This document shows positions 2,989 through 43,588 of a DNA stretch of 44,360 nucleotides, piece after piece. The DNA is from Pseudopelagicola sp. (lineage in GTDB: Bacteria > Pseudomonadota > Alphaproteobacteria > Rhodobacterales > Rhodobacteraceae), in the NCBI GenBank assembly GCA_026195905.1, contig JAPHRE010000014.1, positions 1 through 44,360 of the forward strand, written 5' to 3'. Within the stretch, counting starts at the first letter, position 1, and the number at the start of each line of letters is the position of its first letter. The position numbers and the translations under genes are program-made. Under the pieces are notes generated by a model. It was given only the letters and a program-made list of their open reading frames with translations. It had not been told where the DNA came from and did no database searches.

Positions 2989-3035
2989 CGGGGGTCTGTA
3001 TCACGTCGGTATTGCGTCGGTATTGCGACAGTGCG
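2989..3035 (+). repeat. Dispersed 47-bp element, copy 1
   Basis: Read on the plus strand this stretch is CGGGG followed by three tandem 11-bp units: GTCTGTATCAC (2994-3004), GTCGGTATTGC (3005-3015) and GTCGGTATTGC (3016-3026), then GACAGTGCG (3027-3035). The same 47 bases occur without a mismatch at 43542-43588, and a diverged copy lies at 30545-30586. It occupies the gap between the MFS stop and the metG start. No protein is predicted from it. Confidence 0.85.
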
Positions 3036-3049
3036 GTTTTTGGGCAGGC

Positions 3050-4288
3050 TTAGGCGCCGTTTTCGGGGCCACGGTCGCGCTGACGGCCCATGAGGCGGCC
3101 GATGGTGAAGGTGGTGCGCGGGGCATAGACATAGCGCGTTTTGTTTTCGACCGTAGGGCGAATGCGCATCCGGGTCATGCCAAAGACAATCAGCACACCA
3201 TGTCCGATGGCAATCATCACGAAGAGGGCCGAGGGGCCGAAACGGTCGATCAGGCCGGAGGCAAAAAGCGGCGCGGCAATCGCGCCGAGGGCAAAGAAGA
3301 ACATCAACGCCGCTGAAAGTTCGACCCGCTCTTCGGGGCTGGCAAAATCATTGGCATGGGCCGAGGCGACGGAGTAAATCGGGAAGGCCGTCAGGCCGAA
3401 CACCACGGCGTTGAGCATGATGATATTGGTGCCTAGATTGCCGGTCAAAACGGTCGAGACGCAGGACAGCACCGCCGCCGCCGAAAGCCAGATCAAAACC
3501 CAACGGCGATCAAATTTATCCGCAAGCCAGCCAACCGGGTATTGTGCGAGCGCGCCGCCAAGGACAAAGGCGGCGAGAAACCAAGCGACCTGATCCGTGG
3601 CAAGGCCGACTTGTGTGCCGTAAACGGGGCCGATCATGCGGAAGGAGGCCGAGCTTAGCGCCGCGACGACCACACCGGCGGCGGCAAGCGGCGAGCGCGC
3701 GACCGCCAGCATGGGGCGCAGGCGCGGGGCGTGGGGCGTTTGGGGTTGGGAGGATTTGCTTAGGGTGATGGGCAAGAGCGCGGCGCAGCACAGGATCGCA
3801 AGCAGGTTGTAAGAGACATAGGAGGCGGGTTCGAGGATGGAAATGACCATCTGTGCCGCCAAGGACGCGCCCATATCGACAACCCGGTAAGTGCCCATAG
3901 CGCGGCCCCGGTTTTCGTTGGTGACGCGCGCCTGAAGCCAGGCCTCGATGACGGTATAACAGCCCGCAACGCAGAGACCGGAGGCGATACGCATCAGCGC
4001 CCAGGCCATTGGATCAATGACGAGGAAATGCGCAATAAGGCCAATGGCGCCGGTGGCGGTAAAGGCGGCGAAAGCGCGGGAATGGCCGATGCTGCCCATC
4101 AGGCGGGGCGCCCACCAGCAGCCGATAAAAAAGCCCAGGAAATGCGCCGAGCCGAGGAGGCCGATTTCCTTGGTGCTAAAGCCCAGTGTCAGGCCGGAGA
4201 GCGCATCCAAGGGGCCAACCCCGCCCGTGCTCAGTTGTAGCAGGATGACCGAGAGGAAGAGGGCAGCGGAGGTTAACAAAAAGCGCAT
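3050..4288 (-). CDS. MFS transporter, YcaD-like
   Basis: 412-residue inner-membrane major facilitator protein with about 12 hydrophobic segments. It resembles the YcaD branch: RIASGLCVAGCYTVIEAWL followed by NENRGRAMGTYRVVDMGAS, and ALAQYPVGWLADKFDRRWVL as the cytoplasmic GWxADKxDRR loop between helices 8 and 9. The frame is open upstream to 4384, but I chose the ATG at 4288 because the first membrane helix (RFLLTSAALFLSVILL) begins directly after it and the upstream extension is hydrophilic. No strong Shine-Dalgarno is visible there. It is divergent from the agmatinase-like gene, with 223 bp between them. Substrate unknown; YcaD itself has no firmly established substrate. Confidence 0.9.
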   Translation of the reverse strand: MRFLLTSAALFLSVILLQLSTGGVGPLDALSGLTLGFSTKEIGLLGSAHFLGFFIGCWWAPRLMGSIGHSRAFAAFTATGAIGLIAHFLVIDPMAWALMRIASGLCVAGCYTVIEAWLQARVTNENRGRAMGTYRVVDMGASLAAQMVISILEPASYVSYNLLAILCCAALLPITLSKSSQPQTPHAPRLRPMLAVARSPLAAAGVVVAALSSASFRMIGPVYGTQVGLATDQVAWFLAAFVLGGALAQYPVGWLADKFDRRWVLIWLSAAAVLSCVSTVLTGNLGTNIIMLNAVVFGLTAFPIYSVASAHANDFASPEERVELSAALMFFFALGAIAAPLFASGLIDRFGPSALFVMIAIGHGVLIVFGMTRMRIRPTVENKTRYVYAPRTTFTIGRLMGRQRDRGPENGA

Positions 4289-4511
4289 GGGGATCAGCTT
4301 GGCGCGGCGCGGGCGGTCGGGTCTTGCGGATAATCGACACCCGGCGTCGTTTTTAGCCCTCTGGTGAGTTGGGAATGGCACCATGCGCGCATGGCGGTGG
4401 CCAAGAGTCCAGCCGCCTTATGCCTTGTGCAAAGGTTTGGGGGCGATGGCTATTGCCGGGGCGGGAAAATCTGCGCAGGTTGGCGCAAAGATAGCGAAAG
4501 AGGAGGCACAG

Positions 4512-5471
4512 ATGGCGGATCATAGGTATGAGACAGGGCGGCTCGACCTGCCATTTGTCGGGATTTCGACATTTGGCAAGCGCCCCTATGTGAGCGACTG
4601 GGATGCTATAGAGGCGGATGTGGCCGTGATGGGCGCACCGTTCGATTTTGGCACGCAATGGCGACCCGGCGCGCGGTTTGGGCCGCGGGCGGTGCGCGAG
4701 GCCTCGACGTTGTTTTCCTTTGGCCATGCCGGGGCGTATGACCATGAGGACGATGCGACCTACCTGCCGGAAAGCGTTCGGATCGTGGATATTGGCGATG
4801 CGGATATCGTGCATACGGATACGATGAAGAGCCATGCCAATATCGAAGAAGGCGTACGCAAGATGCTTCAGGCCGGGGCGCTTCCGGTGGTGATCGGGGG
4901 GGATCATTCGGTCAATATCCCTTGTATCAACGCGTTCGATGGCGATGGCGATATTCATATCCTGCAAATCGACGCGCATCTTGATTTTGTCGATGAGCGT
5001 CATGGGGTGCGGTTCGGGCATGGCAACCCGATGCGGCGGGCGGCGGAAAAGCCTTATGTCACCGGGCTGACGCAGGTCGGGATCCGCAATGTGTCGTCCA
5101 CCGCCAAGGAGGGCTATGACGCGGCGCGGTCGATGGGGAGCGATATTCTTTCGGTGCGACAGGCGCGGGCGATTGGGGCGGAGGCCTTGATTGCGCGTAT
5201 CCCCGAGGCGGCGCGGGTCTATGTCACGATTGATATTGACGGGTTTTGTCCGTCAATCGCGCCCGGCACTGGCACGCCGAGCCACGGGGGATTCCTCTAT
5301 TACGATGTGCTTGAGATAATGCAGGCGCTCGCCAAGCGGCACGAGGTTGTGGGCATCGACCTTGTCGAGGTGGCACCGGATTATGACCCGACGGGATCGA
5401 CGTCGGTCCTTGCGGCGCAGGTTTTGCTCAATACGTTGGGCTTTATTTTTCATGCGCGTGGGGCGCGCTGA
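4512..5471 (+). CDS. speB: Agmatinase-like ureohydrolase
   Basis: 319-residue arginase/agmatinase family enzyme, hydrolysing a guanidino group to urea with a di-manganese centre. All six expected metal ligands are visible: His132 in GGDHS, Asp154/His156/Asp158 in DAHLDFVDE, and Asp241/Asp243 in TIDIDGFCPS. The loop PGTGTPSHGG follows. The usual third Asp of the D-x-D-x-x-D-P signature is replaced by Cys246 and Pro by Ser, outside the direct metal ligands. The start at 4512 has a strong AGGAGG at 4501-4506; a longer in-frame extension upstream lacks such a site. Agmatine is the family default, but guanidinobutyrate or guanidinopropionate are possible, so the symbol is tentative. Followed after 29 bp by the aldo/keto reductase. 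Confidence 0.88.
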   Translation: MADHRYETGRLDLPFVGISTFGKRPYVSDWDAIEADVAVMGAPFDFGTQWRPGARFGPRAVREASTLFSFGHAGAYDHEDDATYLPESVRIVDIGDADIVHTDTMKSHANIEEGVRKMLQAGALPVVIGGDHSVNIPCINAFDGDGDIHILQIDAHLDFVDERHGVRFGHGNPMRRAAEKPYVTGLTQVGIRNVSSTAKEGYDAARSMGSDILSVRQARAIGAEALIARIPEAARVYVTIDIDGFCPSIAPGTGTPSHGGFLYYDVLEIMQALAKRHEVVGIDLVEVAPDYDPTGSTSVLAAQVLLNTLGFIFHARGAR

Positions 5472-5500
5472 ACGGATTTGACGGAAAGGAAACGCGACAG

Positions 5501-6544
5501 ATGAAGATGAAACCGCTTGGCCGGACGGGGATCGAGGTCTCAGAGCTTTGCCTTGGGACGATGACCTTTGGCACCCAGACGCAAGAGGCCGAGGCCCATG
5601 CGCAGATGGAGGTGGCGCGCGATCACGGGATCAATTTCTTTGATGCCGCCGAGATGTATCCGGTCAACCCGATCAGCGCCGAGACGGTCGGTCTTACCGA
5701 GGAAATTGTCGGCAATTGGTTTGCCAAGACCGGGCGGCGCGATGAGGTTGTGATGGCGACCAAACATTCGGGGGCCGGGTTCAAACACGCGCGGGACGGG
5801 GCGCCGATTTCGGCCAAGACCATTGCGGAGGCGATTGAGGGGTCGCTGCGGCGTCTGAAGACGGGGTATATCGACCTGTATCAATTCCACTGGCCCAATC
5901 GGGGGTCGTATATGTTCCGTCAGAACTGGGGGTTTGATCCCTCCACGCAGGACCGTGAGGCGACGCGGGCGCATATGGAAGAGGCGCTTGAGGCGCTTCA
6001 GGCACAGGTTGATAAGGGCAATATCCGCGCCTTTGGTCTTTCGAACGAGAGTGCCTGGGGCACGGCGGAATGGCTGCGCATCGCGGGGGAAAAGGGCGGG
6101 CCGCGGGTGGCGTCGATCCAGAACGAATATTCGCTTTTGTGCCGTCTTTATGACACCGACCTTGCGGAGTTGAGCGTCAATGAGGATGTGGGCCTATTGG
6201 CGTTTTCGCCGCTGGCGGCGGGGCTTTTGACGGGCAAGTATCAGCACGGGCGGGTGCCGGAAGGGTCGCGCATGTCGATTGTCGAAACCCTTGGCGGGCG
6301 CAAGTCGGCGCGGGTCTTCGGGGCGGTGGATGCCTATCTCGCGATTGCCCAGACGCATGGGATTGACCCTGTGCATATGGCGATGGCCTTCACGTTGCAG
6401 CGGCCTTTCATGTGTGCGTCGATTTTCGGGGCGACGCATCTTGATCAGCTTGAGCATATCCTCAAATGCACCGAAGTGACGCTTACGGAAGAGATCATGC
6501 AGGATATTAACGATGCGCATCGCGCCCATCCGATGCCCTATTGA
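5501..6544 (+). CDS. tas: Aldo/keto reductase, Tas family
   Basis: 347-residue NADPH-dependent aldo/keto reductase, very close in length and motifs to E. coli Tas (346 aa): VSELCLGTMTFG at the N-terminus, NFFDAAEMYPVNP, and QFHWPNRGS. The catalytic tetrad is complete: Asp48, Tyr53, Lys88 and His130. The beta8/nucleotide-binding end is recognisable as FGATHLDQLE. A GGAAAGGAAA ribosome site precedes the ATG at 5501. It sits in a same-strand run with the agmatinase-like gene and the small membrane protein, suggesting cotranscription. The physiological substrate is unknown; Tas proteins have been linked to starvation and tyrosine suppressor phenotypes in E. coli, which does not fix the reaction here. 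Confidence 0.93.
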   Translation: MKMKPLGRTGIEVSELCLGTMTFGTQTQEAEAHAQMEVARDHGINFFDAAEMYPVNPISAETVGLTEEIVGNWFAKTGRRDEVVMATKHSGAGFKHARDGAPISAKTIAEAIEGSLRRLKTGYIDLYQFHWPNRGSYMFRQNWGFDPSTQDREATRAHMEEALEALQAQVDKGNIRAFGLSNESAWGTAEWLRIAGEKGGPRVASIQNEYSLLCRLYDTDLAELSVNEDVGLLAFSPLAAGLLTGKYQHGRVPEGSRMSIVETLGGRKSARVFGAVDAYLAIAQTHGIDPVHMAMAFTLQRPFMCASIFGATHLDQLEHILKCTEVTLTEEIMQDINDAHRAHPMPY

Positions 6545-6594
6545 GCACGCCCCCGCCTTGCGATAGGGCGGAGCGTCAGAGGAAGGAACACGAG

Positions 6595-7086
6595 ATGGCA
6601 GACCAGGAAATCCTTGCAGAATTGCGCGCCTCGGCGCCGCGCCGGTGGATGGGGGTTGCCATCATGGCCGCGCTTGGCGGGTTGTTGATCTATATCGCGC
6701 TTGTCACGCCACCTGAGGTCTTGGCGTGGCAGGCCTTCCTATTGGTGCTTGGGGGCTTGTCGCTCTGGTTGGCGCAGGCGACGCGGCGGGCGACCGAGCT
6801 GACCCTGACGCTGACAGAAGAGGGGATCGTCGATAGCGCGGGCGAGACCGTGGCGCAGATTGGCGACATTGAAGGCGTGAGCCGTGGGATGTTTGCCATG
6901 AAACCCTCGAACGGCTTCACGCTACGGCTTCGTCGCCGGGATGTGGGGCGTTGGCGTCCGGGGCTTTGGTGGCGGTTTGGCAAACGCGTTGGCATTGGCG
7001 GCGTGACGCCCGGACCACAAAGCAAGATGATGGCGCAGATGATTGAGGCGCTTGTGGCGCAGCGCGGGCCGGGCCACGACGCCTAA
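6595..7086 (+). CDS. Small two-helix membrane protein of unknown function
   Basis: 163 residues. I do not recognise a named family. The sequence shows a short N-terminal cytoplasmic segment (ADQEILAELRASAPRRWMG), two closely spaced membrane helices at about residues 19-37 and 43-60, and a soluble C-terminal part of about 100 residues with alternating hydrophobic residues (ELTLTLTEEGIVDSAGE) that could form a small beta domain. A TTG at 6541 would give an 18-residue longer product, but the ATG at 6595 has AGGAAGGA just upstream and is preferred. It lies 50 bp after the tas gene on the same strand. Confidence 0.8.
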   Translation: MADQEILAELRASAPRRWMGVAIMAALGGLLIYIALVTPPEVLAWQAFLLVLGGLSLWLAQATRRATELTLTLTEEGIVDSAGETVAQIGDIEGVSRGMFAMKPSNGFTLRLRRRDVGRWRPGLWWRFGKRVGIGGVTPGPQSKMMAQMIEALVAQRGPGHDA

Positions 7087-7101
7087 GGCGGCTTGGCCGC
7101 T

Positions 7102-7665
7102 TTAGACGTTGTTGTCGCCGTCGCTCCAGACGAGTTGGGGCGCAAAACGCGGGCGTGTGAAGATGAACGTCTCAATGGTGATATCGCCAAGTCCAACATC
7201 CAGCGCCGGTTCGTAGGTCGAAAGCGTTTCCACAACGATCAGCGTTTCACCGCCAGCGATGGTTGGTAGAAGCGGTGTGAACTCGTTTAGCTTGGCGGCG
7301 GCAAGTGCTTCCATATTGCCGATGGTTTTCGACCATTCCAGCGTGTGTTTCTCGGTCACGTCGCTATAGCTTACGACGGTGACACGCAGGCCAGAAGGGG
7401 AATCCGACTGGGCAAGAAGATCAAAGAGCTTGCGCGTGCTGTCAAGGTAATAGTCGTCGATTGCCGTCGTCTCACGCGAGAGCATGTCAGAGATGGTAAA
7501 GGCGGCCTTCTCGGTCATGGAACGTGTTTTGTAGCCGTCGAAGAAGACGAACATCGCGATATAGGCCCAGAACAGCATCGGCAAGATGATGGCGGCCTCA
7601 ACAGCGACAGAGCCGCGTGTCTCGTCACGAAAGTTTTCAAGGGCGGTTTTGAGTTTGATCCACAT
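7102..7665 (-). CDS. TadE-like pseudopilin-type membrane protein
   Basis: 187 residues. The N-terminus has the TadE/TadG signature: a short basic stretch, then RGSVAVEAAIILPMLFWAY with the conserved Glu at the start of a single membrane helix (about residues 18-43), and a periplasmic remainder. In this family the Gly/Ala-x-x-x-Glu segment is related to the type IV pilin processing region; TadE and TadF are minor pseudopilins of Flp/Tad pili. It is the third gene of a minus-strand set after TadG and TadE (5-bp gap to the latter). The soluble part has no motif I recognise. No Tad secretion ATPase or platform genes lie in this window. Confidence 0.85.
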   Translation of the reverse strand: MWIKLKTALENFRDETRGSVAVEAAIILPMLFWAYIAMFVFFDGYKTRSMTEKAAFTISDMLSRETTAIDDYYLDSTRKLFDLLAQSDSPSGLRVTVVSYSDVTEKHTLEWSKTIGNMEALAAAKLNEFTPLLPTIAGGETLIVVETLSTYEPALDVGLGDITIETFIFTRPRFAPQLVWSDGDNNV

Positions 7666-7670
7666 GACGC

Positions 7671-8195
7671 TTACCTCGGCTCCTGCACGAAGGCGGAAAG
7701 CGCAACGATCGGCACATCGCCATTGCTATCCTTGTTGAGATAGGGGCCGATGCCCTTGTCGCCGAATATCGGGGTGATCTTGGCGCACGCGCGCAGCACC
7801 ATCAATTGGTTGTCCATGCCGTTTTGGAACGTGGTCACGGGTTGGCTTTCCTCGGCCTGATTGGTGCAGGTTGTCTTGTGCGGCAAGTCCGACCATGAAC
7901 GCATATCGACAATCTGCATCTCAAGCATGAGGTTCTCGTTGCAGTTTTTGACGACCTCGTTGGTGGCGCAAATGCGGCGGCGGATTTCGTCGTGATCGGG
8001 CGCGGTTCCCGTCGATAGGCGGATGTCACGCACCACCAGATCAAGCGCACGCTCCAAGAAGGCCGAGCGCATGGTAATCATGCCGATGTCGATGGACGAC
8101 ACCATGATCCAGAAGAACAGCGGAAACATGATCACGAACTCTATCGAGGCGTGGCCGCTGTCGTCCTTGCGGAGTATGTTCAAGAGCCGTTTCAT
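7671..8195 (-). CDS. TadE family protein
   Basis: 174 residues. It begins KRLLNILRKDDSGHASIEFVI and continues with MFPLFFWIMVSSIDIGMI: the TadE-type motif with Glu at the start of a single membrane helix (about residues 14-37). The periplasmic domain has Cys residues in RRRICATNEVVKNCNEN, KTTCTNQ and VLRACAKI that could form disulfides. Its ATG overlaps the TadG stop codon (ATGA at 8195-8192), so the two are translationally coupled. It probably acts as a minor pseudopilin or envelope-anchored partner of the TadG protein upstream. Confidence 0.87.
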   Translation of the reverse strand: MKRLLNILRKDDSGHASIEFVIMFPLFFWIMVSSIDIGMITMRSAFLERALDLVVRDIRLSTGTAPDHDEIRRRICATNEVVKNCNENLMLEMQIVDMRSWSDLPHKTTCTNQAEESQPVTTFQNGMDNQLMVLRACAKITPIFGDKGIGPYLNKDSNGDVPIVALSAFVQEPR

Positions 8196-10084
8196 TGGGT
8201 CAACTTCAGTTGGGCGATGGACGACGCGATCGCCGCGAACGCATCGGAGATTTCAAGGCCGTCCACATCGAAGTAATGGGCATCGGTGCTGGCGCAGTCT
8301 TTGAGAACGGCGCGCCCGTCGCTTGGAGCCTCAAAACCGATGGTGAAGACCACGATATTCTTGGCCTTGGCGGCGTCGCAGATCGCCTTGGTGCGGGCGT
8401 TCTTGGTCGAGTTGCCGATGGATTTGCGCACGTCATAATACCAATCGTCCCAGGCATCATTGTCGTTCATCCAGGGTTCGTAATGTTCCTCGACGTTATA
8501 TTTGAGCGAAGTATAGGCCCAGAGGTCGGGATATTGCAGGCGGATCGCTTCGCCGTTCTCGGAGACCTCGGTCGTGATCTCTTCATAAGAGGTGCGGTTG
8601 CCCCATTTTTTACACTGACCGCGTTTGCTTCCCCATGTGTAGTAGCGTTTGCAATAGGCCTCTACATGTTCGATCCATTCGGACGTGGTAATGACGCCAT
8701 TACCATAGGGGTGGTCATACCAGCCTTCTTGCCAGTCGCCGTTTTGATCGGTGTGACCGGGCCAGTAGTAGAGAGGGTCGTCATACTCGTCGTTGTCGTT
8801 GTAGTCGTAGTAGTCAATGCCGACATAGACGGAATAGACTTCTTTTTCATCGTTCCACCAGATGTTCGATTCCCCGGTGCGGAAGGCACTGTCGACGTAA
8901 TATTGGCTGGTGTTTTGACCGTCGGTCATAAGCACCACGACCTTGAGCGCGTCGCCGCCTTCATATTTGGTCGGACGGTCGGCGAAATCGTCGGACACCA
9001 TCTCCTCGTCGATGAGGTGGTCTATGATGGGCTGGGTCGAAGGGTCTAGCAGGGCCACGCCCCATTTCATGCCGATATCAATCGAGGTATTTCCCTCCGC
9101 CTTAAGGCCATTGATATGGCTCTTGAGCACGGCTGTGTTCTTGGAGAGGGCCAGCACCTCGCTTGAGGCGTCATACTCTGAGTATGCCTCGGCATCGCGG
9201 CAGACAGGCGAACTGACGAGTTTTTTCGGATCGTTGTCGCGCCCGTCATAGTCGCTCCACGGGCTGAAATGCATCGCTTGGGTCCAGCGGTCGGAAGGGT
9301 TGAGCGTTGTTGTCTCAAAGTCACTGCCGGAGAAGTGCAGGCAATGGGAATAGCCCTGCTGGTTCGCGGCAGCGTCGACGCCGGTTGCATTGGGGTTGAT
9401 GGCGGTATCCACATCCATGTCGCCGTTGATCGACGCGTTCAGCGTATCAAAAAGCTTTTTGTGCACCGCGACCTGCGTTGCGTAGGGCACGATGGAGATC
9501 GAGAGTTTGCCGTCCTCGGTATTGGCATCCATCGTGTCGATGAAATCCTTGGCGGCGGTCTTGAGGTTGCTCAGGCGGCTGTTGGAGCCCATAGAGCCGG
9601 AGACGTCAAGGACGAGCGAAATCTCGACCCCGCCAATACGTTCCTCGGCGCGCCCTGCGGAAGTCGATTGCAGGGCTTCGACGCCCGCAAGTTTCATGAA
9701 ATTGGTTTTGGTCTGGCGCTCGGCGCGGGCGGTGACGACGCGGTAGTTCAGCCCGGTGTCGTCATCCACATACGTCAGCGTATCGCTCAGCCCGGATTTG
9801 GCGAAATAGTCACGCACCACGCTTTTGGGGTCGAGCGACTGGCTCATGTCGGCGGCGGCGAGCACGGCGCGGTCGAGCGTATGTTGCATCCGGGTGCGGT
9901 TCATCTCGGAGCGCATCAGGTCAATGCCGATCCCGCCGACCAGCAAGATGATCAGGAATAGGAAGATGGAAAAGCCGACGAGAACGCCGCTTTCATCGCG
10001 TTGAAAACCGCGCAGCCAGCGTTTGCACGCTTTACCCGTGCGCATTTGCGTCACGCGATTGGGGTCTGTTGTTTCATACGACAT
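8192..10084 (-). CDS. TadG-like protein with von Willebrand factor A domain
   Basis: 630 residues from the ATG at 10084, which follows GCAGGTGAAACGA. An N-terminal TadE/TadG segment (RDESGVLVGFSIFLFLIILLV) forms a membrane helix at about residues 36-55. A vWA domain begins at EISLVLDVSGSMG with the MIDAS set Asp160/Ser162/Ser164, GNTS at 331-334 and TDG at 387-389, so metal-dependent ligand binding is likely retained. Between the TDG strand and the last strand NIVVFTIGF (about 576-584) lies an insert of roughly 170 residues, rich in Asp, Tyr and Trp (for example DYYDYNDNDEYDDPLYYWPG). First gene of a three-gene operon with two TadE-like proteins. Such proteins are thought to act at the cell surface with Flp/Tad pili. 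Confidence 0.9.
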   Translation of the reverse strand: MSYETTDPNRVTQMRTGKACKRWLRGFQRDESGVLVGFSIFLFLIILLVGGIGIDLMRSEMNRTRMQHTLDRAVLAAADMSQSLDPKSVVRDYFAKSGLSDTLTYVDDDTGLNYRVVTARAERQTKTNFMKLAGVEALQSTSAGRAEERIGGVEISLVLDVSGSMGSNSRLSNLKTAAKDFIDTMDANTEDGKLSISIVPYATQVAVHKKLFDTLNASINGDMDVDTAINPNATGVDAAANQQGYSHCLHFSGSDFETTTLNPSDRWTQAMHFSPWSDYDGRDNDPKKLVSSPVCRDAEAYSEYDASSEVLALSKNTAVLKSHINGLKAEGNTSIDIGMKWGVALLDPSTQPIIDHLIDEEMVSDDFADRPTKYEGGDALKVVVLMTDGQNTSQYYVDSAFRTGESNIWWNDEKEVYSVYVGIDYYDYNDNDEYDDPLYYWPGHTDQNGDWQEGWYDHPYGNGVITTSEWIEHVEAYCKRYYTWGSKRGQCKKWGNRTSYEEITTEVSENGEAIRLQYPDLWAYTSLKYNVEEHYEPWMNDNDAWDDWYYDVRKSIGNSTKNARTKAICDAAKAKNIVVFTIGFEAPSDGRAVLKDCASTDAHYFDVDGLEISDAFAAIASSIAQLKLTQ

Positions 10085-11842: not shown

Positions 11843-11844
11843 GC

Positions 11845-29948: not shown

Positions 29949-30536
29949 ATGTTCACAGGGATCATTACGGATATGGGTGCGGTGCGGGCGCTGGAGACGC
30001 GCGGCGACCTTCGGGCGCGGATTGGCACCGGCTATGACACCAGCACGATCGACCTTGGAGCGTCGATTGCCAGCGATGGTGTCTGCCTGACGGTGATCGA
30101 GATCGGGCCGGATTGGTATGATGTCGAGATCAGCGCCGAGACCGTATCCAAGACCAATCTTGGCGATTGGGAGGTTGGCAAACGGGTCAATCTTGAACGC
30201 GCGCTCAAGGTCGGAGACGAGCTTGGGGGGCATATCGTGTCGGGGCATGTCGATGGTGTGGCAGATATTGTGACCATGAGCGATGAGGGCGATTCAACCC
30301 GCGTCACGCTTCGGGCACCGGAAAACCTTGCAAAATTCATCGCGCCCAAAGGGTCCGTCGCGCTAAACGGGACGTCCCTGACGGTCAACGAGGTCGATGG
30401 CTGTGACTTTGGCATCAACTTCATCCCACACACCAAAGAGGCCACCACATGGGGCGCGGCCAAGGTCGGGGACCGGGTCAATCTCGAGATCGACACGCTG
30501 GCGCGCTACGTCGCACGGCTGGCGGAAATGTCCTAA
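29949..30536 (+). CDS. ribE: Riboflavin synthase, alpha chain
   Basis: 195 residues; the trimeric enzyme dismutates two molecules of dimethyl-ribityllumazine to riboflavin. The start MFTGIITDMGAV is the family signature. Two similar barrel halves are visible: GASIASDGVCLTVIEIG with VSKTNLGDWEVGKRVNLERAL, and KGSVALNGTSLTVNEVDG with INFIPHTKEATTWGAAKVGDRVNLE; HIVSGHVDG lies in the first half. The ATG at 29949 follows AAGGGGAGCAGGCGG; earlier in-frame codons do not fit the family. It is separated from ribD by the capsule block on the other strand. A degenerate copy of the 47-bp element starts 8 bp past the stop. Confidence 0.96.
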   Translation: MFTGIITDMGAVRALETRGDLRARIGTGYDTSTIDLGASIASDGVCLTVIEIGPDWYDVEISAETVSKTNLGDWEVGKRVNLERALKVGDELGGHIVSGHVDGVADIVTMSDEGDSTRVTLRAPENLAKFIAPKGSVALNGTSLTVNEVDGCDFGINFIPHTKEATTWGAAKVGDRVNLEIDTLARYVARLAEMS

Positions 30537-30836
30537 AAACCCACGTCTGTATCGCGTCGGTATTGCGTATGTATCACGGTGGTGCGGTTTTGGCCGAAGG
30601 GTTGGCGCGGTTTGCGTGGGCTTCGTGCGCTTTCTGGGAGAGGCAGGTCTGGGCGGGAAGTGTGAATTCGCGGGACTTGCGAAGGCATCCGGTCAAAGAC
30701 GTGAAAGCGGCCATTCAAGGCTCAGGTTCAAGACCCCGCCATGCTGCACCATAGACCAAAGTCAGCAATGCGCAGGAAGCGGGATTTGCAAACTTGAGCA
30801 CAAGACCCCTCGTTGCCCTGCGCATGTTCTCATCCG
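30537..30836 (+). other. Gene-free stretch after ribE
   Basis: 300 bp between the ribE stop and the DUF4365-type pseudogene. It begins with the degenerate copy of the 47-bp element (30545-30586). The rest has no open frame with coding character, no clear terminator and no RNA gene that I can recognise. Base composition falls towards the right end, where the low-GC insert begins. Confidence 0.5.
30545..30586 (+). repeat. Dispersed 47-bp element, diverged copy 2
   Basis: Three 11-bp units in register: GTCTGTATCGC (30545-30555), GTCGGTATTGC (30556-30566) and GTATGTATCAC (30567-30577), then GGTGGTGCG (30578-30586). Compared with copies 1 and 3, unit 1 has one change and the tail has drifted. Unit 3 ends in GTATCAC, like unit 1 of the other copies, rather than GTATTGC. 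It starts 8 bases after the ribE stop. Confidence 0.75.
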
Positions 30837-34700: not shown

Positions 34701-34701
34701 G

Positions 34702-35698: not shown

Positions 35699-35744
35699 GA
35701 GGGGGCTACGACAAGGGGGGAGATGTCAGAAGGGCTTGATTTTT

Positions 35745-35759
35745 GTTCATGGATTGTTC
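35745..35759 (+). promoter_or_regulatory. LexA operator (SOS box) of mmcB
   Basis: GTTC (35745-35748), seven bases ATGGATT, GTTC (35756-35759). This is an exact match to the alphaproteobacterial LexA recognition sequence GTTC-N7-GTTC. It ends 11 bases before the mmcB ATG, so bound LexA would block its transcription. Confidence 0.85.
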
Positions 35760-35770
35760 ACCTTCGCGGC

Positions 35771-36223: not shown

Positions 36224-36226
36224 CGC

Positions 36227-37620: not shown

Positions 37621-37958
37621 AGGCCAAGCCCCGCTGGAAACTGATGCGTGCCATTTTCAAGCGGAAGCGGTTGCGCCCATGCCACATCGTCGAGCCGCAG
37701 GGCGCGGTAGAGATGGGGAAACAGCGCACCGCCACGTGAGGGTTCCCATTTGAGCGCATCGCCAAGGGCGTCGGCCTCAAGCCCAAGCAGGAACAGGTTC
37801 GCCTCGCCAGAGAAATGTTTGGCGGCGGTCTCGGCGACCTGATCGGCGGTCGAGAAATGCACGAAGCCGTCAGCAATATCGACCGGCGCGCCAGCGGTTT
37901 CGCCGCTCGCGCGCAGGGCAGCCCATTCGGGGGCGCGGAAAATCTTGAAAATCAGCAT
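37617..37958 (-). CDS. DUF952 family protein
   Basis: 113 residues. The features [39 protein letters not shown] and [17 protein letters not shown], with the H-F-S-T and F-P-H-L-Y motifs, mark the DUF952 family, a small cytoplasmic fold related to ADP-ribosyltransferase-like proteins but with no established reaction. The start at 37958 begins the conserved region; no clear ribosome site is visible and an upstream GTG is possible. First gene of the DUF952-pyrD-arsC operon, divergent from the yedK-type gene. Confidence 0.88.
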
Positions 37959-38068
37959 GGCGCTGACATGCACCCGCGCCGGTGCGAGGTCAAGCATCGG
38001 CTTGACTCTGGGCGGATCGGGGCGGAGTTTCCAGGGTGCGGAATGGGTCGTATGGCAAGGGGGCGGGT

Positions 38069-38728
38069 ATGTGTGGACGGTTTGCAATCACCTTGCCCAA
38101 TGATGCTATGGCCAAGCTATTTGGCGCGGCCCCGGCCAATGTTCTTCCCGAGATGCCAAATTATAACGTCTGCCCGACGACGCGCATTCATGTGGTGCGC
38201 GCGGGTGCGGGCGGGCGGCAGCTTTTGGCGATGCGCTGGGGCTTTGTGCCGACATGGTACAAGGCGCTGGACGATGGCCCGCTTCTTATCAATGCCCGCG
38301 CCGAGACCCTTGCCAGCAAGCCCGCGTTTCGCGAAGCCTGTCGGGCGCGGCGGTGCCTGATTCCGGTGTCGGGGTTCTATGAATGGACCAAGGATGGCGA
38401 TGGGGTGCGCTGGCCTTGGTATATTCACGGCGAGGGGCCGTTGGCGCTTGCCGGGGTCTGGCAGGGCTGGGACGGACCGGAGGGGCGGCTTGAGACCTGC
38501 GCCATTGTGACCACGGGGGCAAATCATAGCATGGCGCGGCTGCATCACAGGATGCCGGTTGTCATCGGGCATGAGGATTGGCCGCTTTGGCTTGGCGAAG
38601 CGGGGCATGGGGCGGCGGCGGTGATGCGGGCCGCGCCGGACGATCTTTTGCGGTTTCATCAGGTGGACCGGGCGGTCAATTCCAATCGCGCCACCGGGCC
38701 GGAGTTGATCGCGCCGCTTGAGCGGTGA
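38069..38728 (+). CDS. yedK: SOS response-associated peptidase / abasic-site DNA-protein crosslinker (YedK/HMCES)
   Basis: 219 residues. The catalytic set is complete and at the same positions as in E. coli YedK: Cys2 (MCGRFAI), Asn75 (LINARAET), Glu105 (GFYEWTKDG) and His160 (LHHRMPV). The protein links its Cys2 to abasic sites in single-stranded DNA, protecting them. The initiator Met must be removed, which fixes the ATG at 38069. I see no LexA box in the 110 bp before it, so SOS control is not supported here in spite of the family name. Confidence 0.95.
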   Translation: MCGRFAITLPNDAMAKLFGAAPANVLPEMPNYNVCPTTRIHVVRAGAGGRQLLAMRWGFVPTWYKALDDGPLLINARAETLASKPAFREACRARRCLIPVSGFYEWTKDGDGVRWPWYIHGEGPLALAGVWQGWDGPEGRLETCAIVTTGANHSMARLHHRMPVVIGHEDWPLWLGEAGHGAAAVMRAAPDDLLRFHQVDRAVNSNRATGPELIAPLER

Positions 38729-38834
38729 TTATCAAATATTGCCAACGAATGTTTCATGGGGGCAAGACGCGGAACGCATTGGACCGGGGCCGTGGGACGG
38801 GGCATGATGGGGCAAGCCGATGGAGTAAACCCAG

Positions 38835-39647
38835 ATGACCCAATATTACGCGCCCAAGGGCGGATTGCCGCCCCAGACCCAACTGCTCACGGATCGCGCG
38901 ATGTTCACCGAGGCCTATGCGGTCATTCCGCGCGGCACCATGAGCGATATCGTGACCTCGCAGATACCGTTCTGGACCGACGCGCGGTTTTGGGTATTGG
39001 CGCGGCCCTTGTCGGGGTTCGCCGAGACGTTTTCGCATTACATCGCCGAGGTGCGTCCGGGCGGTGGCAGCACGCGCCCGGAGACCGACCCGGACGCGCA
39101 AGCGGTGCTTTTCGTGGTCGAGGGCGAGATCGTGCTGACCCTTGAGGGTACACGGCACGCGTTGGCGCCGGGCGGCTATGCCTATATCCCGGCAAGCAGC
39201 GAGTGGAGCCTTGGCAACGAAAGCAGCGCCCCGGCGCGGTTCCATTGGGTGCGCAAGGCCTATGAGGCCGTTGATGGGCTTGAGATGCCGGAAGCGTTTG
39301 TCACCAACGAAACAGAGATCGCGCCGACAGAGATGCCGGGCACGGATGGCAAATGGGCCACGACCCGGTTTGTGGAACCCGATGACCTACGTCATGACAT
39401 GCATGTCAATATCGTCACTTTCGAGCCGGGCGCGGTCATTCCGTTTGCCGAGACGCATGTCATGGAACATGGGCTTTACGTGCTTGAGGGCAAGGCGGTG
39501 TATCGGCTCAATCAGGACTGGGTTGAGGTCGAGGCGGGCGACTATATGTGGCTACGCGCCTTTTGCCCGCAGGCCTGTTATGCGGGCGGGCCGGGCAAGT
39601 TCCGTTACCTGCTTTACAAGGACGTCAACCGGCATATGCCGCTCTAG
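38835..39647 (+). CDS. allE: (S)-ureidoglycine aminohydrolase
   Basis: 270 residues, a bicupin of purine catabolism that turns (S)-ureidoglycine to (S)-ureidoglycolate and ammonia. The start TQYYAPKGGLPPQTQLLTDRA is typical. The C-terminal cupin has the full manganese set: Glu206, His208 and His212 in AETHVMEHGLYVLEG, and Gln246 in FCPQACYAGG. The N-terminal cupin lacks such ligands. The ATG at 38835 follows GGAGTAAACCCAG. No other allantoin genes are in the window, so its pathway partners are elsewhere. Confidence 0.93.
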   Translation: MTQYYAPKGGLPPQTQLLTDRAMFTEAYAVIPRGTMSDIVTSQIPFWTDARFWVLARPLSGFAETFSHYIAEVRPGGGSTRPETDPDAQAVLFVVEGEIVLTLEGTRHALAPGGYAYIPASSEWSLGNESSAPARFHWVRKAYEAVDGLEMPEAFVTNETEIAPTEMPGTDGKWATTRFVEPDDLRHDMHVNIVTFEPGAVIPFAETHVMEHGLYVLEGKAVYRLNQDWVEVEAGDYMWLRAFCPQACYAGGPGKFRYLLYKDVNRHMPL

Positions 39648-39671
39648 GGTCTGCCCCGTATTGGCGGGGGC

Positions 39672-39688
39672 GTGATAGGTCTTATCAC
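39672..39688. promoter_or_regulatory. Candidate operator upstream of the GAPDH-like gene
   Basis: GTGATA (39672-39677), five bases GGTCT, TATCAC (39683-39688): a perfect 6-bp dyad 62 bases before the ATG at 39751. The half-site spacing does not fit FNR (TTGAT-N4-ATCAA). The regulator is unknown. Confidence 0.4.
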
Positions 39689-39750
39689 GAAAACGCGCTT
39701 GTTCTTGGCCGCGAAACCCTGTGAAACAGGGGAAAGAGCGGGAGACGCAT

Positions 39751-40764
39751 ATGGGTGAGCACACAACCAAGGTATTCCTCAATGGGTTCGGGCGCATTGG
39801 CCGGACCTTGCTGCGGATTTTGGGGCAGGGCGGGTTCGACGATATCGAGATCATGGGGATCAACGATATCGAACCGCTTGAGACCTGTGCCTATCTTTTC
39901 GAATACGATAGCGTCTATGGCCCCTATCGCGGCACGGTTGAGACCGCGCCGGGGCAGTTGATCCTTGATGGCAAAGCAATCCCGTTTCATGGTGTGCGCG
40001 ATTTGTCGGCGCTCGATCTTGGCGAGGTGGATCTGGTTCTGGAGTGCACCGGCATGGCCGGGTCGCGTGCCGTGGCCGAGCGGGGGCTTGCCGCCGGGGC
40101 GACATCGGTGTTGATCTCCGGCCCTTCGGACGAGGCGGATGTGACCCTCGTGATGGGGGCGAACGAGGCGCAGCTTGGGGCGCATCGGATCGTGTCCAAC
40201 GCCTCTTGCACGACCAATGCGCTTGCGCCACTTCTCAAGGTTCTGGATGCGTCTTATGGGCTTATTAGCGGCCATATGACCACGGTGCATTGCTATACCG
40301 GAAGCCAGCCAACGGTCGACAAGCCGCGCGGCGGAGGATTGGCGCGCAGCCGGGCGGCGGCCCTGTCAATGGTGCCGACCACGACCAGCGCGGGGCGGTT
40401 GATCGACGTGGTGCTTCCCGATCTCGCGGGGCGTGTTCTGGCGCGGGCGATCCGGGTTCCGACGGCGTCCGTCTCGGCGATTGATCTCACGATTCAGACC
40501 GAGGTCGCGACCACGGTTGAGGGCGTCAATGCGCTCTTTCAGGCGGAGGTGGCGCGCGGTGGGGTTCTTGGCTGGACACAAAAGCCGCTTGTTTCGACCG
40601 ACCTGCGGGCGCGGCCCGAGTCGCTTATCCTTTCGGGGCGGGAGACCTCGGTCTCGGTTGGTGGCTTGTTGCGGGTGTTTGGCTGGTATGACAACGAATG
40701 GGGCTTTTCCTGCCGGATGCTCGACATGGCGCGCCTGATGGCGGCGCGCGGCAAAACTTTCTAG
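39751..40764 (+). CDS. Glyceraldehyde-3-phosphate dehydrogenase family protein (divergent)
   Basis: 337 residues, full length. N-terminal NAD(P)-binding NGFGRIGRTLLRIL at 11-24, catalytic Cys153 in NASCTTNALAP (SASCTTN in the classical enzyme), and His180 in TTVHCYTG. It retains SRAAALSMVPTTTSA and FGWYDNEWGFSCRMLDMARL. The segment after His180, SQPTVDKPRGGG, replaces the standard N-D-Q-x-x-x-D, which contacts phosphate and cofactor, so the preferred substrate or direction may differ (gluconeogenic or erythrose-4-phosphate-type). The ATG at 39751 has GCGGGAG upstream. A dyad operator candidate lies 62 bases before it. It converges on the SLC13 gene. Confidence 0.87.
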   Translation: MGEHTTKVFLNGFGRIGRTLLRILGQGGFDDIEIMGINDIEPLETCAYLFEYDSVYGPYRGTVETAPGQLILDGKAIPFHGVRDLSALDLGEVDLVLECTGMAGSRAVAERGLAAGATSVLISGPSDEADVTLVMGANEAQLGAHRIVSNASCTTNALAPLLKVLDASYGLISGHMTTVHCYTGSQPTVDKPRGGGLARSRAAALSMVPTTTSAGRLIDVVLPDLAGRVLARAIRVPTASVSAIDLTIQTEVATTVEGVNALFQAEVARGGVLGWTQKPLVSTDLRARPESLILSGRETSVSVGGLLRVFGWYDNEWGFSCRMLDMARLMAARGKTF

Positions 40765-40780
40765 AAAACTGTCACCGGTC

Positions 40781-42553
40781 TCAGAGCGGCCAGAACAGCA
40801 GGATCGCAGGCACCGAGACCGCCACGACGAGGATTTCAAGCGGCAGCCCCATGCGCCAGTAATCGCCAAAGCGATAGCCGCCGGGGCCAAGGATCAGCGT
40901 ATTGTTCTTATGTCCGATCGGCGTCAGGAAGGCCGAGGACGCGGCCACGGCCACCGCCATCAGGAACGGATCGGGCGACACGCCAAGCGTTTGCGCCATC
41001 TGGATGCCGACGGGGGCGGCGACGATGGTTGTTGCGGTGTTGTTGAGCACATCCGAGAGTGTCATTGTCACCATCATCAAAAGCGTCAGCACGGCCCAGA
41101 TCGGCATGCCGTCGGTGATCGAGACCAGCGAGCCAGCGATCAGTTCCGTGCCGCCCGCATCTTCCAGCGCCGCGCCAAGCGGGATCATCGAGCCGAGCAG
41201 AACCACCACGGGCCATTCGATCTGGTCATAGATTTCGGCCATTGGCAGGATGCCCGAGAGCACATAGGCGATGACCACAAGGCCAAGCGCGATCGGCAGA
41301 TAGACGAGGCCGATAGAGGCTGCGAGCACGGCGGCCCCAAACATGCCAATGGCCAGCCAGACCTTGCGATTGTTCGTCACGGCATAGCCGCGATTGGCCA
41401 GTGGCAGACAGCCGAGCCAGTCGGTGATATCCGCACCGCGGGATTTGGGCACCAATAGCAGGAGGATGTCACCGGGGCGCACTTGGGTTTTGCGGATGCG
41501 GCTACTGATGCGGCGGCCTTCGCGCGAAATTCCAAGCAGCACCGCGCCCTGACGCCATGACAGGCCAAGCGATTGCGCCGATTTGCCGTTGATCCGTGCG
41601 GTCTCGGGCACCACGACTTCAATCATGTCCAGACCTTCGCCCGCCGCCTTGAGATGTTCCTCGCGTTTGGAATCGGCAAAGTCGAGATCAAGTGCGGCGC
41701 GAAATTCATCAAGCGCGTCCGGGGTGGCCTCGATCAGGATCGCGTCGCCAGCCTCAAGTATCGTGTTGCGCGCCGCGCCATAGCGGCGTTTGTCGTCCCG
41801 CATCAGGCCGATCAGGGCCACGTCGGCATCATCGGCCTGTTCCTGCAATTGGCCCAGGCGCTTGCCGATCAGTTTGCTTTCCTCGGGCACAGTCAGTTCC
41901 GCAAGGTATTGATCAAGATCGGAAACTTTCTTGCCCGCATCTTCGCGCGCGGGGATCAGCCGCCAGCCGATGAGCGCCACAAAGACCAACCCGGCAAGCG
42001 CCGTGATGCCGCCCACCGGGGCAAAATCGAACATCTTGTAAGGCGCGCCGAGGGCGTCTTCGCGGATTGAGGCGATGATGATATTGGGCGGGGTGCCGAT
42101 CAGCGTTGCCATGCCGCCAAGGATTGTCGCAAAGGACAGCGGCATCAGCGAGAGCGCGGGGCTGCGCCCGGCTTTGCGGGCGGTCTGGATATCGACGGGC
42201 ATCAGCAGAGCAAGGGCCGCGACATTGTTCATAAAGGCCGAAAGCACCGCGCCGATCCCGCCCATAAGGGCGATATGGCCGCCGAGTTTACGCGAACTGT
42301 CGACCAGGGTCCGGGTGATGAGAAACACCGCGCCCGACCGCATCAGACCCGCCGAAACCACGAGCACAAGCGCCACGACAATCGTGGCCGGGTGGCCAAA
42401 GCCGTTAAACGCGGCGTCCACCTTCACAACCCCGGTCACGACGCCGACCATCAGCGCCGAAAAGGCGACAAGATCATAGCGGAACCGCCCCCAAAGCAGC
42501 AGCGCGAACACCGCGCCAAACAGGGAGAACAGGATGATCTGGTCTTGGGTCAT
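40781..42553 (-). CDS. SLC13-type permease with two RCK_C (TrkA-C) domains
   Basis: 590 residues, an inner-membrane anion/citrate-type transporter. The first half has helices with GHPATIVVALVLVVSAGLM and AFMNNVAALALLMPV (the N-N-V motif); TLIGTPPNIIIA follows. Two regulatory RCK_C domains occupy about residues 205-285 and 300-385 (VPEESKLIGKRLGQLQEQADDAD; VVVPETARINGKSAQSLGLSW). The second half repeats the pore motif: LSDVLNNTATTIVAAPVG and SSAFLTPIGHKNN. Such proteins carry dicarboxylates, sulfate or other anions; the substrate is not clear here. The ATG at 42553 has AAAGG upstream; 20 earlier in-frame residues are unlikely. Confidence 0.92.
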   Translation of the reverse strand: MTQDQIILFSLFGAVFALLLWGRFRYDLVAFSALMVGVVTGVVKVDAAFNGFGHPATIVVALVLVVSAGLMRSGAVFLITRTLVDSSRKLGGHIALMGGIGAVLSAFMNNVAALALLMPVDIQTARKAGRSPALSLMPLSFATILGGMATLIGTPPNIIIASIREDALGAPYKMFDFAPVGGITALAGLVFVALIGWRLIPAREDAGKKVSDLDQYLAELTVPEESKLIGKRLGQLQEQADDADVALIGLMRDDKRRYGAARNTILEAGDAILIEATPDALDEFRAALDLDFADSKREEHLKAAGEGLDMIEVVVPETARINGKSAQSLGLSWRQGAVLLGISREGRRISSRIRKTQVRPGDILLLLVPKSRGADITDWLGCLPLANRGYAVTNNRKVWLAIGMFGAAVLAASIGLVYLPIALGLVVIAYVLSGILPMAEIYDQIEWPVVVLLGSMIPLGAALEDAGGTELIAGSLVSITDGMPIWAVLTLLMMVTMTLSDVLNNTATTIVAAPVGIQMAQTLGVSPDPFLMAVAVAASSAFLTPIGHKNNTLILGPGGYRFGDYWRMGLPLEILVVAVSVPAILLFWPL

Positions 42554-42720
42554 GATATGCCTTTCACGCGTTGCCCTACCCAAACGCAGGCAGACCGGGA
42601 TAGCAAGCGCCACTTGCGGGGAAAAACGCCGATGTGCGCTCAGCTTGCAGCCCGGCCCGCGGTTGCGCTATAGGACACTGAACTCAGCAATGATCAGCAA
42701 CATACGGGGCGCACGAATTT

Positions 42721-43461
42721 ATGGCCGGCCATAGTAAATGGGCAAATATCCAGCACCGCAAGGGACGGCAGGACGCCGCGCGGTCGAAACTTTTCTCCAA
42801 GCTTTCCAAAGAGATCACGGTCGCGGCCAAGATGGGCGACCCCGATCCCGAAAAGAACCCGCGCTTGCGGCTTGCGGTTAAGGAAGCCAAGGCGCAATCG
42901 GTTCCCAAGGACGTGATTGAACGCGCGATCAAGAAATCCACCGCCGGGGACGGCGATGATTACGAAGAAATCCGCTATGAGGGCTATGGCCCCAATGGGG
43001 TTGCGGTGATCGTCGAAGCCATGACCGACAACCGCAACCGGACGGCCTCGACGGTGCGGTCGACCTTCTCCAAGAATGGCGGCAACCTTGGCGAGACCGG
43101 CTCTGTTGGGTTCATGTTCGAACGCAAGGGCGAAGTCACCTATCCGGCTTCGGTTGGCGATGGCGACACGGTTATGATGGCGGCGATTGAGGCCGGTGCG
43201 GAAGACGTTGAATCGAGCGAGGACGGGCATGTGATCTGGTGCGCGGATACCGATCTCAACGATGTGTCCAACGCGCTTGAGGCGGCGCTTGGCGAGTCTG
43301 AGTCAACCAAGCTGGTCTGGAAGCCGACGACCACAACGGAGATGGATCTCGAGGGGATGCAGAAGCTGATGAAGCTTATTGATGCGCTTGAGGATGACGA
43401 CGATGTGCAGCGCGTCACGACCAACTTTGAGGCCTCTGACGAGGTTATGGATCAACTCTGA
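42721..43461 (+). CDS. yebC: YebC/PmpR family transcriptional regulator/translation factor
   Basis: 246 residues. Signature start [22 protein letters not shown], then [47 protein letters not shown], and the glycine-rich [20 protein letters not shown]. YebC proteins were described as DNA-binding regulators, and newer work links them to translation of proline-rich stretches. The ATG at 42721 begins the family signature though its ribosome site is weak. An intrinsic terminator follows 31 bp after the stop, then copy 3 of the 47-bp element. Confidence 0.96.
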
Positions 43462-43492
43462 TCCAGCCCAAAACATCGACGAACTGACCGAT

Positions 43493-43522
43493 AAAACGGC
43501 GTCCTGCGGGGGGCCGTTTTTT
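43493..43522 (+). terminator. Intrinsic terminator after yebC
   Basis: AAAACGGC (43493-43500) pairs with GCCGTTTT (43513-43520) across a 12-base loop, ending in a run of six T. It is 31 bases past the yebC stop. Confidence 0.88.
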
Positions 43523-43541
43523 CATGTCTTGGCCTCTGAAA

Positions 43542-43588
43542 CGGGGGTCTGTATCACGTCGGTATTGCGTCGGTATTGCGACAGTGCG
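43542..43588 (+). repeat. Dispersed 47-bp element, copy 3
   Basis: Identical over all 47 bases to 2989-3035: CGGGG, then GTCTGTATCAC (43547-43557), GTCGGTATTGC (43558-43568), GTCGGTATTGC (43569-43579) and GACAGTGCG (43580-43588). It lies about 20 bases after the yebC terminator and about 70 bases before the LysE-type gene. Confidence 0.85.

Follow-up and report, generated by a model that had tools for sequence, protein, structure and literature searches.

The window, that is, the whole 44,360-nt stretch of DNA analysed here, contains three copies of a short intergenic element, all on the plus strand. Element 1 (2989–3035, +) lies 97 bp upstream of metG, encoding methionyl-tRNA synthetase (1184–2896, −), and 23 bp from the 3′ end of an MFS gene on the minus strand (3050–4384 by open reading frame, 3050–4288 by the gene caller). 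Element 2 (30545–30586, +) is located 8 bp 3′ of the stop codon of ribE, encoding the riboflavin synthase alpha chain (29949–30536, +). Element 3 (43542–43588, +) lies 85 bp 3′ of a yebC-type regulator gene (42721–43461, +) and 77 bp 5′ of a LysE-type gene (43657–44256, +). All five gene names come from reading the translations, and the gene calls were made with a simple codon-score caller that is sound for direction and third codon positions rather than for exact starts.

Each copy consists of three tandem 11-bp units and a tail: units 2994–3004, 3005–3015 and 3016–3026 with the tail GACAGTGCGG in element 1, and units 30545–30555, 30556–30566 and 30567–30577 with the tail GGTGGTGCGG in element 2. 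The unit order is GTCTGTATCAC / GTCGGTATTGC / GTCGGTATTGC in elements 1 and 3 and GTCTGTATCGC / GTCGGTATTGC / GTATGTATCAC in the diverged element 2; the commonest form of the unit in these copies is GTCKGTATYRC. With up to three mismatches allowed, a two-unit pattern matches the window six times, always within the three elements, against a chance level of 0.02 on average and 1 at most (100 dinucleotide shuffles of the window), and all five exact occurrences of GTCGGTATTGC in the window lie inside elements. The initial annotation had read this architecture correctly: the 47-bp identity of elements 1 and 3, a diverged copy (30545–30577 plus its tail), three units in strict 11-bp register, a single orientation and closeness to gene ends or starts (about 100 bp, with 8 to 97 bp found here).

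A dispersed family of intergenic elements

The genome from which the window derives carries at least 87 elements, dispersed and intergenic. At up to two mismatches the pattern gave 194 matches and the same pattern read backwards gave none, which clearly removes the reservation that the element might be confined to three places or arise equally often by chance. The number of tandem 11-bp units ranges from two to four and is three in 60 of 66 elements of the window's genome. Elements usually end at the 3′ side of the array in a GTCGGTGC-like half unit, measure roughly 40–60 bp and occur about once per 40–50 kb. The element was found in 20 of 23 relatives within the genus and is patchy in other genera; the genomes G005, G008 and G012 make up an element-free clade. 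Spacing is over-regular in both genomes tested (G314, p = 0.0002; contig C18 of G023, p = 0.0008 among the matches listed). Recent spread, proposed in the initial annotation, fits four copies in the window's genome, which have the 33-bp array and the first nine tail bases in common, but other sites are old: the ribE-downstream element is conserved in position and direction in 15 of 25 genomes of the genus. The metG-upstream element is conserved in the same way in 15 of the 21 examined, and the yebC-side element is present at its site in 3 of 25, the window's genome being included in all three counts.

Carriage by insertion sequences, phages or plasmid replicons was rejected on plasmid and viral contig searches. 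Plasmids gave no match to 141 bp of the window and three weak matches, outside Rhodobacterales, to a 61-nt query; three stretches of viral contigs matched, one of which has an array like those of the window's genome and 69% similarity to DNA of that genome over 1.8 kb. We saw no sign of an insertion sequence, in agreement with the earlier reading, which had also set the element apart from REP hairpins. Here, too, the data concur: folding each of the three window elements as RNA from either strand (six folds) gave z-scores of −1.50 to +0.72 with no stable hairpin, and the Y1/RAYT-type transposase family PF01797 has no member in the window's genome (97% complete). PF01797 is present in 8 of 25 genus genomes, including the element-free G012. 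An Rfam search of the window gave no match.

Left flanks are enriched in GTTAA boxes, mainly near −19, −30 and −42, that is, at steps of roughly 11–12 bp. In the window's genome, AAAAC is enriched in the left flank and GTTTT in the right, and a T run is common in the tails. Elements there lie between convergent genes in 21 of 64 cases and between divergent genes in 4 of 64, with the right-hand gene directed towards the element in 48 of 64. Two familiar candidates were rejected: an intrinsic terminator, as the window elements form no GC-rich stable hairpin (z-scores of −1.5 or above), and a transcription-factor operator, as the placement between genes is not that of promoters. No description of the motif was found in the literature, mostly at the level of titles and abstract starts, and six 11-mers occurring in papers showed no link to the subject in titles or abstract starts among the matches listed.

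Strand skew around the elements

The element is polar, and it is well supported that the strand reading GTCGGTAT is the locally G-rich, C-poor strand. Across the window the plus strand has positive GC skew, at 0.06 to 0.18 in each of the 11 complete 4-kb windows and at 0.20 in the final 360 bases. It is also the strand of the three elements, whose common orientation reflects local strand GC skew and is not gene-related, a point that the initial annotation had missed. Throughout the window's genome, skew is positive in element orientation at 58 of 66 elements (mostly 12-kb stretches), and the skewed domain covers about 10 kb around most elements, reaching further downstream. Skew at third codon positions (GC3 skew) in this genome is +0.13 in co-oriented and −0.26 in opposed genes, so that the skew belongs to the strand rather than to the gene, and gene orientation as its mediator is rejected. 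Element orientation tracks strand skew and has no relation to genes beyond the second neighbour. The element strand is likewise the G-rich strand in 20 of 22 cases in G023, where all 25 of the elements among the matches listed at 0–1.0 Mb of contig C18 share one direction and skew is steady.

Element and replication fork were compared in G314, a single 3.6-Mb contig with 72 elements, whose origin was inferred from gidA and skew, so that its replichores and fork direction are presumed. Skew has the sign expected from the element in 41 of 46 cases and that expected from the presumed fork in 29 of 46; the regression coefficients are 0.170 (se 0.017) for the element and 0.058 (se 0.017) for the fork, the observed mean lay beyond all 20,000 label permutations, and downstream skew exceeds upstream skew in 26 of 30. 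Element orientation is concordant with the presumed fork in 45 of 72, and the best two-arc split does not exceed chance (p = 0.33). Where elements point against the presumed fork, local skew follows the element in 16 of 20, the other four lacking the predicted sign, and the average local reversal over these 20 extends from about −8 to +14 kb, centred on the elements. Agreement of 4-kb windows with the nearest element runs outward from 46/52 (<3 kb) through 73/85 and 49/57 (6–10 kb) to 16/24, 18/36 and 15/34 (>30 kb), while absolute skew falls from 0.203 in the nearest to 0.067 in the farthest class; this tabulation uses all 72 elements, and a version limited to elements inside the stretches read had the same outcome. 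Eighteen strong-skew runs in the longer stretches hold a matching-sign element in 14 cases, none in 4 and an opposite one in 0. All eight negative runs have a minus-strand element; the four element-less runs are all positive, and one of them (2164001–2172001) runs against the presumed fork. Further exceptions are the element at 3118669, which has no domain, and those at 2142319 and 2155573, which are unlike their surroundings. Orthologues whose nearest elements are oppositely oriented, in the stretches read, differ as predicted in 133 of 143 cases; for same-orientation orthologues near versus far from an element the difference is small (+0.062, se 0.041, n = 19, with a negative value in one of five bins).

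From a correlation alone it does not follow which is cause and which is effect. At the three genes adjoining the window elements, genomes with and without the element were compared, and at two of the three loci the neighbouring gene is less skewed where the element is missing. GC3 skew of metG is 0.30 with the element and 0.15 without (effect +0.153, p = 3.5 × 10−6 with lambda fitted at 0; +0.164, p = 0.0008 on a full Brownian model), the ranges overlapping slightly (lowest with the element 0.198, highest without 0.208). The effect is +0.124 at ribE (p = 0.031; Brownian p = 0.042) and is not significant at yebC (+0.053, p = 0.18; 3 genomes with and 22 without the element). In element-free G008, skew is weak across the 120 kb read. 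On the element strand, 4-fold sites of metG change from C 0.357 and G 0.462 without the element to C 0.239 and G 0.516 with it.

Plain C-to-T deamination as the sole cause of the skew was rejected because TA skew at 4-fold sites near elements stays small (means of −0.06 to +0.09) while GC skew is about 0.2–0.29. A passage of Koppenhofer et al. 2022 (PMC9836097) allows that deamination may not be responsible for skew peaks, or may play a smaller role. GC content at 4-fold sites climbs towards elements. GC-biased gene conversion is not supported: 4-fold GC of metG is 0.756 with the element and 0.820 without, and a footprint of GC-biased recombination is therefore not seen. Asymmetry of k-mers near elements reflects G-richness in general, with no dominant Chi- or KOPS-like word.

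Interpretation and comparison with known systems

The association of element and skew is well supported by these counts; its cause and mechanism we infer. Our leading reading, held tentatively, is that the element is a polar site directing a strand-asymmetric DNA transaction over about 10–15 kb, likeliest Chi-like recombination or repair synthesis. A candidate oligomeric protein would sit on the array, with one unit to each helical turn, and read its direction; an oligomer on one face of the helix, as suggested in the initial annotation, fits the 11-bp register. The bound site might then start or redirect a one-way transaction, most likely of the recombination or repair type as at Chi, in which the element strand would remain single-stranded immediately upstream and be resynthesised downstream. 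Over evolutionary time, many such rounds could deplete C on the element strand and produce a local GC-skew domain.

The main rival, which we consider unlikely, is that the element marks replication polarity in the manner of KOPS or AIMS and is selected for the leading strand, the skew being made by replication; inverted segments would bring element and old skew along together, and skew would peak at elements because these sit in old core blocks. The uniform direction and steady skew on C18 of G023, the fork component persisting in G314 (0.083 at 16–30 kb from elements), the weak near-versus-far contrast between orthologues and the core-gene-rich skew peaks described in part of PMC9836097 all suit this explanation. 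It is harder to reconcile with the poor fork concordance and two-arc split in G314, the reversal about 20 kb wide centred on discordant elements, the dependence of metG and ribE skew on element presence and the weak skew of G008. It is improbable that cause runs the other way, a copying element settling or surviving on the G-rich strand of pre-skewed DNA and making no skew itself. Sets of identical copies with genome-specific tails do suggest copying, and the association alone gives no direction, yet the 20-kb polar domains would need another source, old elements occupy fixed orthologous sites at over-regular spacing, and no Y1/RAYT transposase was found in the window's genome. Quite improbable, too, is a DNA-transfer signal, either a pac-like start of GTA packaging or a sparse uptake or transfer sequence, through which flanks would be moved and recombined with a fixed strand polarity. 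A GTA headful is about 4 kb, and the domains of this polar, chromosome-wide element are biased downstream and span a few headfuls; skew, however, rises several kilobases upstream too. Part of PMC9836097 describes GTA genes as well conserved in Rhodobacterales and lying within skew peaks, and GTA clusters as widespread in the order, whereas the element is patchy. Least probable is a transcription or RNA element (a site at the ends of genes that acts as terminator, insulator or regulator): the scarcity of divergent pairs, the many convergent pairs and inward-directed right-hand genes, and the AAAAC and GTTTT flanks of the window's genome favour it, but the window elements have neither a stable fold nor an Rfam match, and orientation follows strand skew rather than genes beyond the second neighbour.

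GC skew is widely taken to reflect the direction of replication and serves to locate origins, inversions and misassemblies. It is a real if less than probable prospect that much of the GC skew in these Roseobacteraceae has been written by dozens of dispersed polar elements, each launching a strand-specific transaction over 10–15 kb, and not by replication, such that flipping or losing an element would flip or erase the local composition. If polar elements set skew locally, such inferences would fail in this group, the core-gene skew peaks published for Rhodobacterales would gain a physical address, and an unknown DNA-processing or chromosome-handling protein would be indicated, its sites now mapped. 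Direct testing is feasible, as the group has cultured members, Shimia aestuarii and Thiosulfatihalobacter marinus.

Among known systems, Chi is polar, lies on one strand and acts over kilobases in one direction, but is 5–8 bp long, frequent and inside genes. The element is likewise polar and keeps to one strand of its DNA domain; unlike Chi, it is long, sparse and intergenic, and exact single units in the window are confined to elements. The rolling-circle origin of pMV158, bound by RepB, has iterons of three 11-bp direct repeats. The element, too, strings three 11-bp units head to tail in phase with the helix, but it is chromosomal and present in tens of copies, with no initiator or nick site recognised. 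OmpR/PhoB-family sites, including the CtrA site TTAA-N7-TTAA, are 11-bp tandem direct half-sites, which recalls the tandem units and the GTTAA boxes stepped near the array, although the elements between convergent genes have no promoter to control. Similar to REP/BIME sequences, the element occurs in many copies dispersed at gene ends and rarely between divergent genes; in contrast to them, it is polar, lacks a stable hairpin and occurs in a genome in which no Y1/RAYT transposase was found. KOPS and AIMS are short words biased by replichore, and the element resembles them in being polar and chromosome-wide, as on C18 of G023, but its orientation in G314 shows no clear replichore bias and skew centres on the elements. 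AIMS are given as 8-bp sequences in part of PMC5993296. A parallel in the order itself is with the Rhodobacterales GC-skew peaks of PMC9836097, which are local peaks of G over C and may be element-centred domains; the passages of that study describing the peaks tie no sequence element to them, whereas the domains described here centre on a polar element.

A dispersed family of 11-bp arrays

The three arrays reported in the initial annotation at 2989–3035, 30545–30586 and 43542–43588 of the window were borne out as described, and matches to a two-unit pattern allowing up to three mismatches were confined to them in the window (0.02 expected by chance from shuffles). The units mostly follow GTCKGTATYRC in strict 11-bp register, and a shortened unit (GTCGGTGC, GGTGGTGC or GACAGTGC) usually comes after the array; in this genome the left flank is AAAAC-rich and the right flank is often GCGGNTTTT. 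No Rfam family matched the window, and on neither strand did the window elements fold clearly better than shuffles (z −1.5 to +0.7). The window is contig C43 of a 3.06-Mb, 80-contig genome that contains 194 pattern matches at up to two mismatches and none to the reversed pattern. Manual merging of the places listed for these matches gives at least 87 elements, extending the proposed dispersed intergenic family beyond the window's three places. Among the 66 elements located in the window or in the other stretches retrieved, the search pattern counted three units in 60, four in five and two in one. At least seven of the at least 87 elements are no more than about 300 bp from a contig end (C5, C7, C8, C15, C18, C20 and C32; one or two expected by estimate), an excess that may reflect repeats breaking the assembly.

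GTTAA boxes are enriched in the left flanks, at 3.76 per kb in this genome, 2.66 in G314 (a genome outside the genus) and 8.59 in G023 (another genome examined), compared with 0.47, 0.80 and 0.54 per kb in other intergenic DNA. They lie mostly at about −19, −30 and −42, and their phase is non-uniform for periods of 10.5–12, which could also come from shared ancestry of the copies. Four copies in this genome (window 2989–3035 and 43542–43588, C3:17403 and C15:87937) have in common the 33-bp array and the first nine tail bases, and the copies at metG in sister genomes differ, which points either to copies changing in concert or to a core that was recently copied apart from its flanks. In G314, many copies have a longer right-hand part in common (GTCGGTGGACCCGAACGG, with TTAA at +33); this subfamily is specific to that genome and suggests that its members were copied or homogenised.

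Twenty of the 23 relatives in the genus bear the element (14 to 174 matches each); G005, G008 and G012 gave no pattern match and form one clade in a three-protein tree. When the order was sampled evenly, matches turned up in 23 of 292 genomes (this one included) and 9 of 112 genera, seven of them with just 1–5; the reversed control matched once in each of two genomes. Beyond the genus, the element is plentiful in G314, G056, G204, G210 and G142, followed by G040 and G126 with 12–16. Named genomes with an exact match are Shimia aestuarii, Thiosulfatihalobacter marinus and one Rhodobacteraceae MAG, and the Shimia locus is 86–87% identical to a locus of the present genome over 4.5 and 2.4 kb, which makes the window probably that of a Shimia relative.

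Element-centred skew and replication polarity

Local GC skew is positive in element orientation at 58 of the 66 elements of this genome, and agrees with the element in 31/34 (first set) and 41/46 (later set, local 10-kb skew) cases in G314, 20/22 in G023 and 5/5 named-genome loci, three of these from one MAG. Because genes of both directions show it, the skew is a strand effect. At fourfold-degenerate sites it reaches 0.26–0.29 less than 1.5 kb upstream and, where sites suffice, 0.10–0.15 at 5–12 kb upstream, declining more slowly on the downstream side; TA skew at such sites near elements is about zero. Koppenhofer et al. (2022; PMC9836097) described local GC-skew peaks in Rhodobacterales that hold core and GTA genes and have G-rich codons, and wrote of ‘a distinct evolutionary process’ in the order; the portions of that paper drawn on here name no sequence element behind the peaks, for which the present family may be a candidate.

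Replication polarity would also give the orientation pattern of G023 contig C18, where all 25 listed elements in the first 1.0 Mb are co-oriented and those listed at 1.0–1.565 Mb comprise 6 + and 7 −. On C18 the uniform stretch is the one remote from gidA; orientations become mixed in the roughly 0.5 Mb closest to that gene, and skew in this part is mostly close to zero. G314, a single 3.60-Mb contig, carries gidA (C1:2931362–2933191) about 1.58 Mb from dnaA (C1:1348429–1349760). As gidA lies there and skew tends to flip sign near it, we inferred an origin near 2.93 Mb and a terminus near 1.10 Mb; the skew suggests an origin near gidA, not dnaA. Element orientation agrees with the presumed fork in 45 of 72 cases, and no two-arc split of orientations did better than random. 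Where elements oppose the presumed fork, local skew follows the element in 16/20; mean skew in the orientation of these elements is −0.145 at −20 kb, zero near −8 kb, +0.10–0.17 from −2 to +4 kb and zero again at +14 kb, with 9–10 elements in the outer bins. Skew is greater downstream than upstream in 26/30 G314 cases, and windows agree with the nearest of the 72 listed elements in 168/194 cases at up to 10 kb, 16/24 at 10–16 kb and 33/70 beyond. Across the longer G314 stretches (about 0.7 Mb), 18 skew runs (at least two 4-kb windows whose GC3 strand skew exceeds 0.1 in magnitude) include 14 with a matching-sign element, four, all positive, with none, and none with an opposite element. Counter-cases are the ‘−’ element at 3118669, which has no domain, the misfitting elements at 2142319 and 2155573, and the positive run 2164001–2172001, which opposes the presumed fork and holds no element. 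Element-centred skew in G314 probably does not simply reflect replication.

Placement and spacing

Gene calls are avoided by 65 of the 66 elements. With both neighbours called (n = 64), gene directions about the element (E) are <E< in 27, >E< in 21, >E> in 12 and <E> in 4, so divergent pairs are rare; the counts are 10, 11, 11 and 2 in G314 (n = 34) and 5, 8, 5 and 3, with one unknown, in G023 (n = 22). Gaps between G314 elements are more even than random (CV 0.70 versus 0.98, P = 0.0002), with 2 below 10 kb versus 13 expected (P = 0.0002). The 38 listed elements of G023 C18, probably not all those present beyond 1.0 Mb, give a CV of 0.61 versus 0.96 (P = 0.0008) and 3 such gaps versus 8 expected (P = 0.02). 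Such spacing would be unexpected of a family that did no more than copy itself. An element adjoins dnaA in three genomes, 94 bp beyond its 3′ end in G314 (C1:1348313) and about 1 kb upstream in G023 (C16:75124–75156) and G204 (C2:1190530); a decayed copy lies upstream of dnaA in G004, and in G008 and G017 the surroundings of the gene showed no element.

Presence–absence comparisons and a possible mechanism

We compared the same gene with and without an element (called at up to four mismatches), taking skew on the element strand. Mean GC3 skew of metG is 0.299 in the 15 of 21 genomes with the element and 0.148 in the six without, the ranges just overlapping (0.198 with, 0.208 without); among the six, the three bearing elements elsewhere average 0.142 and the three bearing none 0.153. 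Corresponding values are +0.033 (15 genomes) versus −0.113 (10) for ribE and 0.001 (3) versus −0.044 (22) for yebC. Phylogenetic regression gave effects of 0.153 for metG (P = 3.5 × 10−6 at fitted λ = 0; full Brownian 0.164, P = 0.0008) and 0.124 for ribE (λ = 0.95, P = 0.031; Brownian P = 0.042); that for yebC, 0.053, was not significant (P = 0.18; Brownian P = 0.22). Orthologue pairs whose nearest fetched elements are opposed differ as predicted in 133/143, and same-orientation near–far pairs show no significant difference (+0.062, s.e. 0.041, n = 19). Relative to element-free G008, orthologues in this genome, G023 and G314 show stronger skew in the direction of the element in 22/24. GC3 strand skew in G008 is weak over 120 kb, with 28/30 windows between −0.04 and 0.17 and the remaining two, whose raw skew is positive, at −0.25.

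The simplest model fitting these data would be a polar site that starts a one-way, strand-specific process, with a shorter range upstream of the element and a longer one downstream. On the element strand of metG, C is lost to G, T and A, which would be expected were this strand exposed or recopied in an error-prone manner, other causes being possible; A likewise decreases near elements in G314. The 11-bp phase and flanking boxes suggest a putative oligomeric reader. Chi-type repair, with a 3′ single strand upstream and recopying downstream, has in principle the same shape as the upstream–downstream asymmetry of the element.
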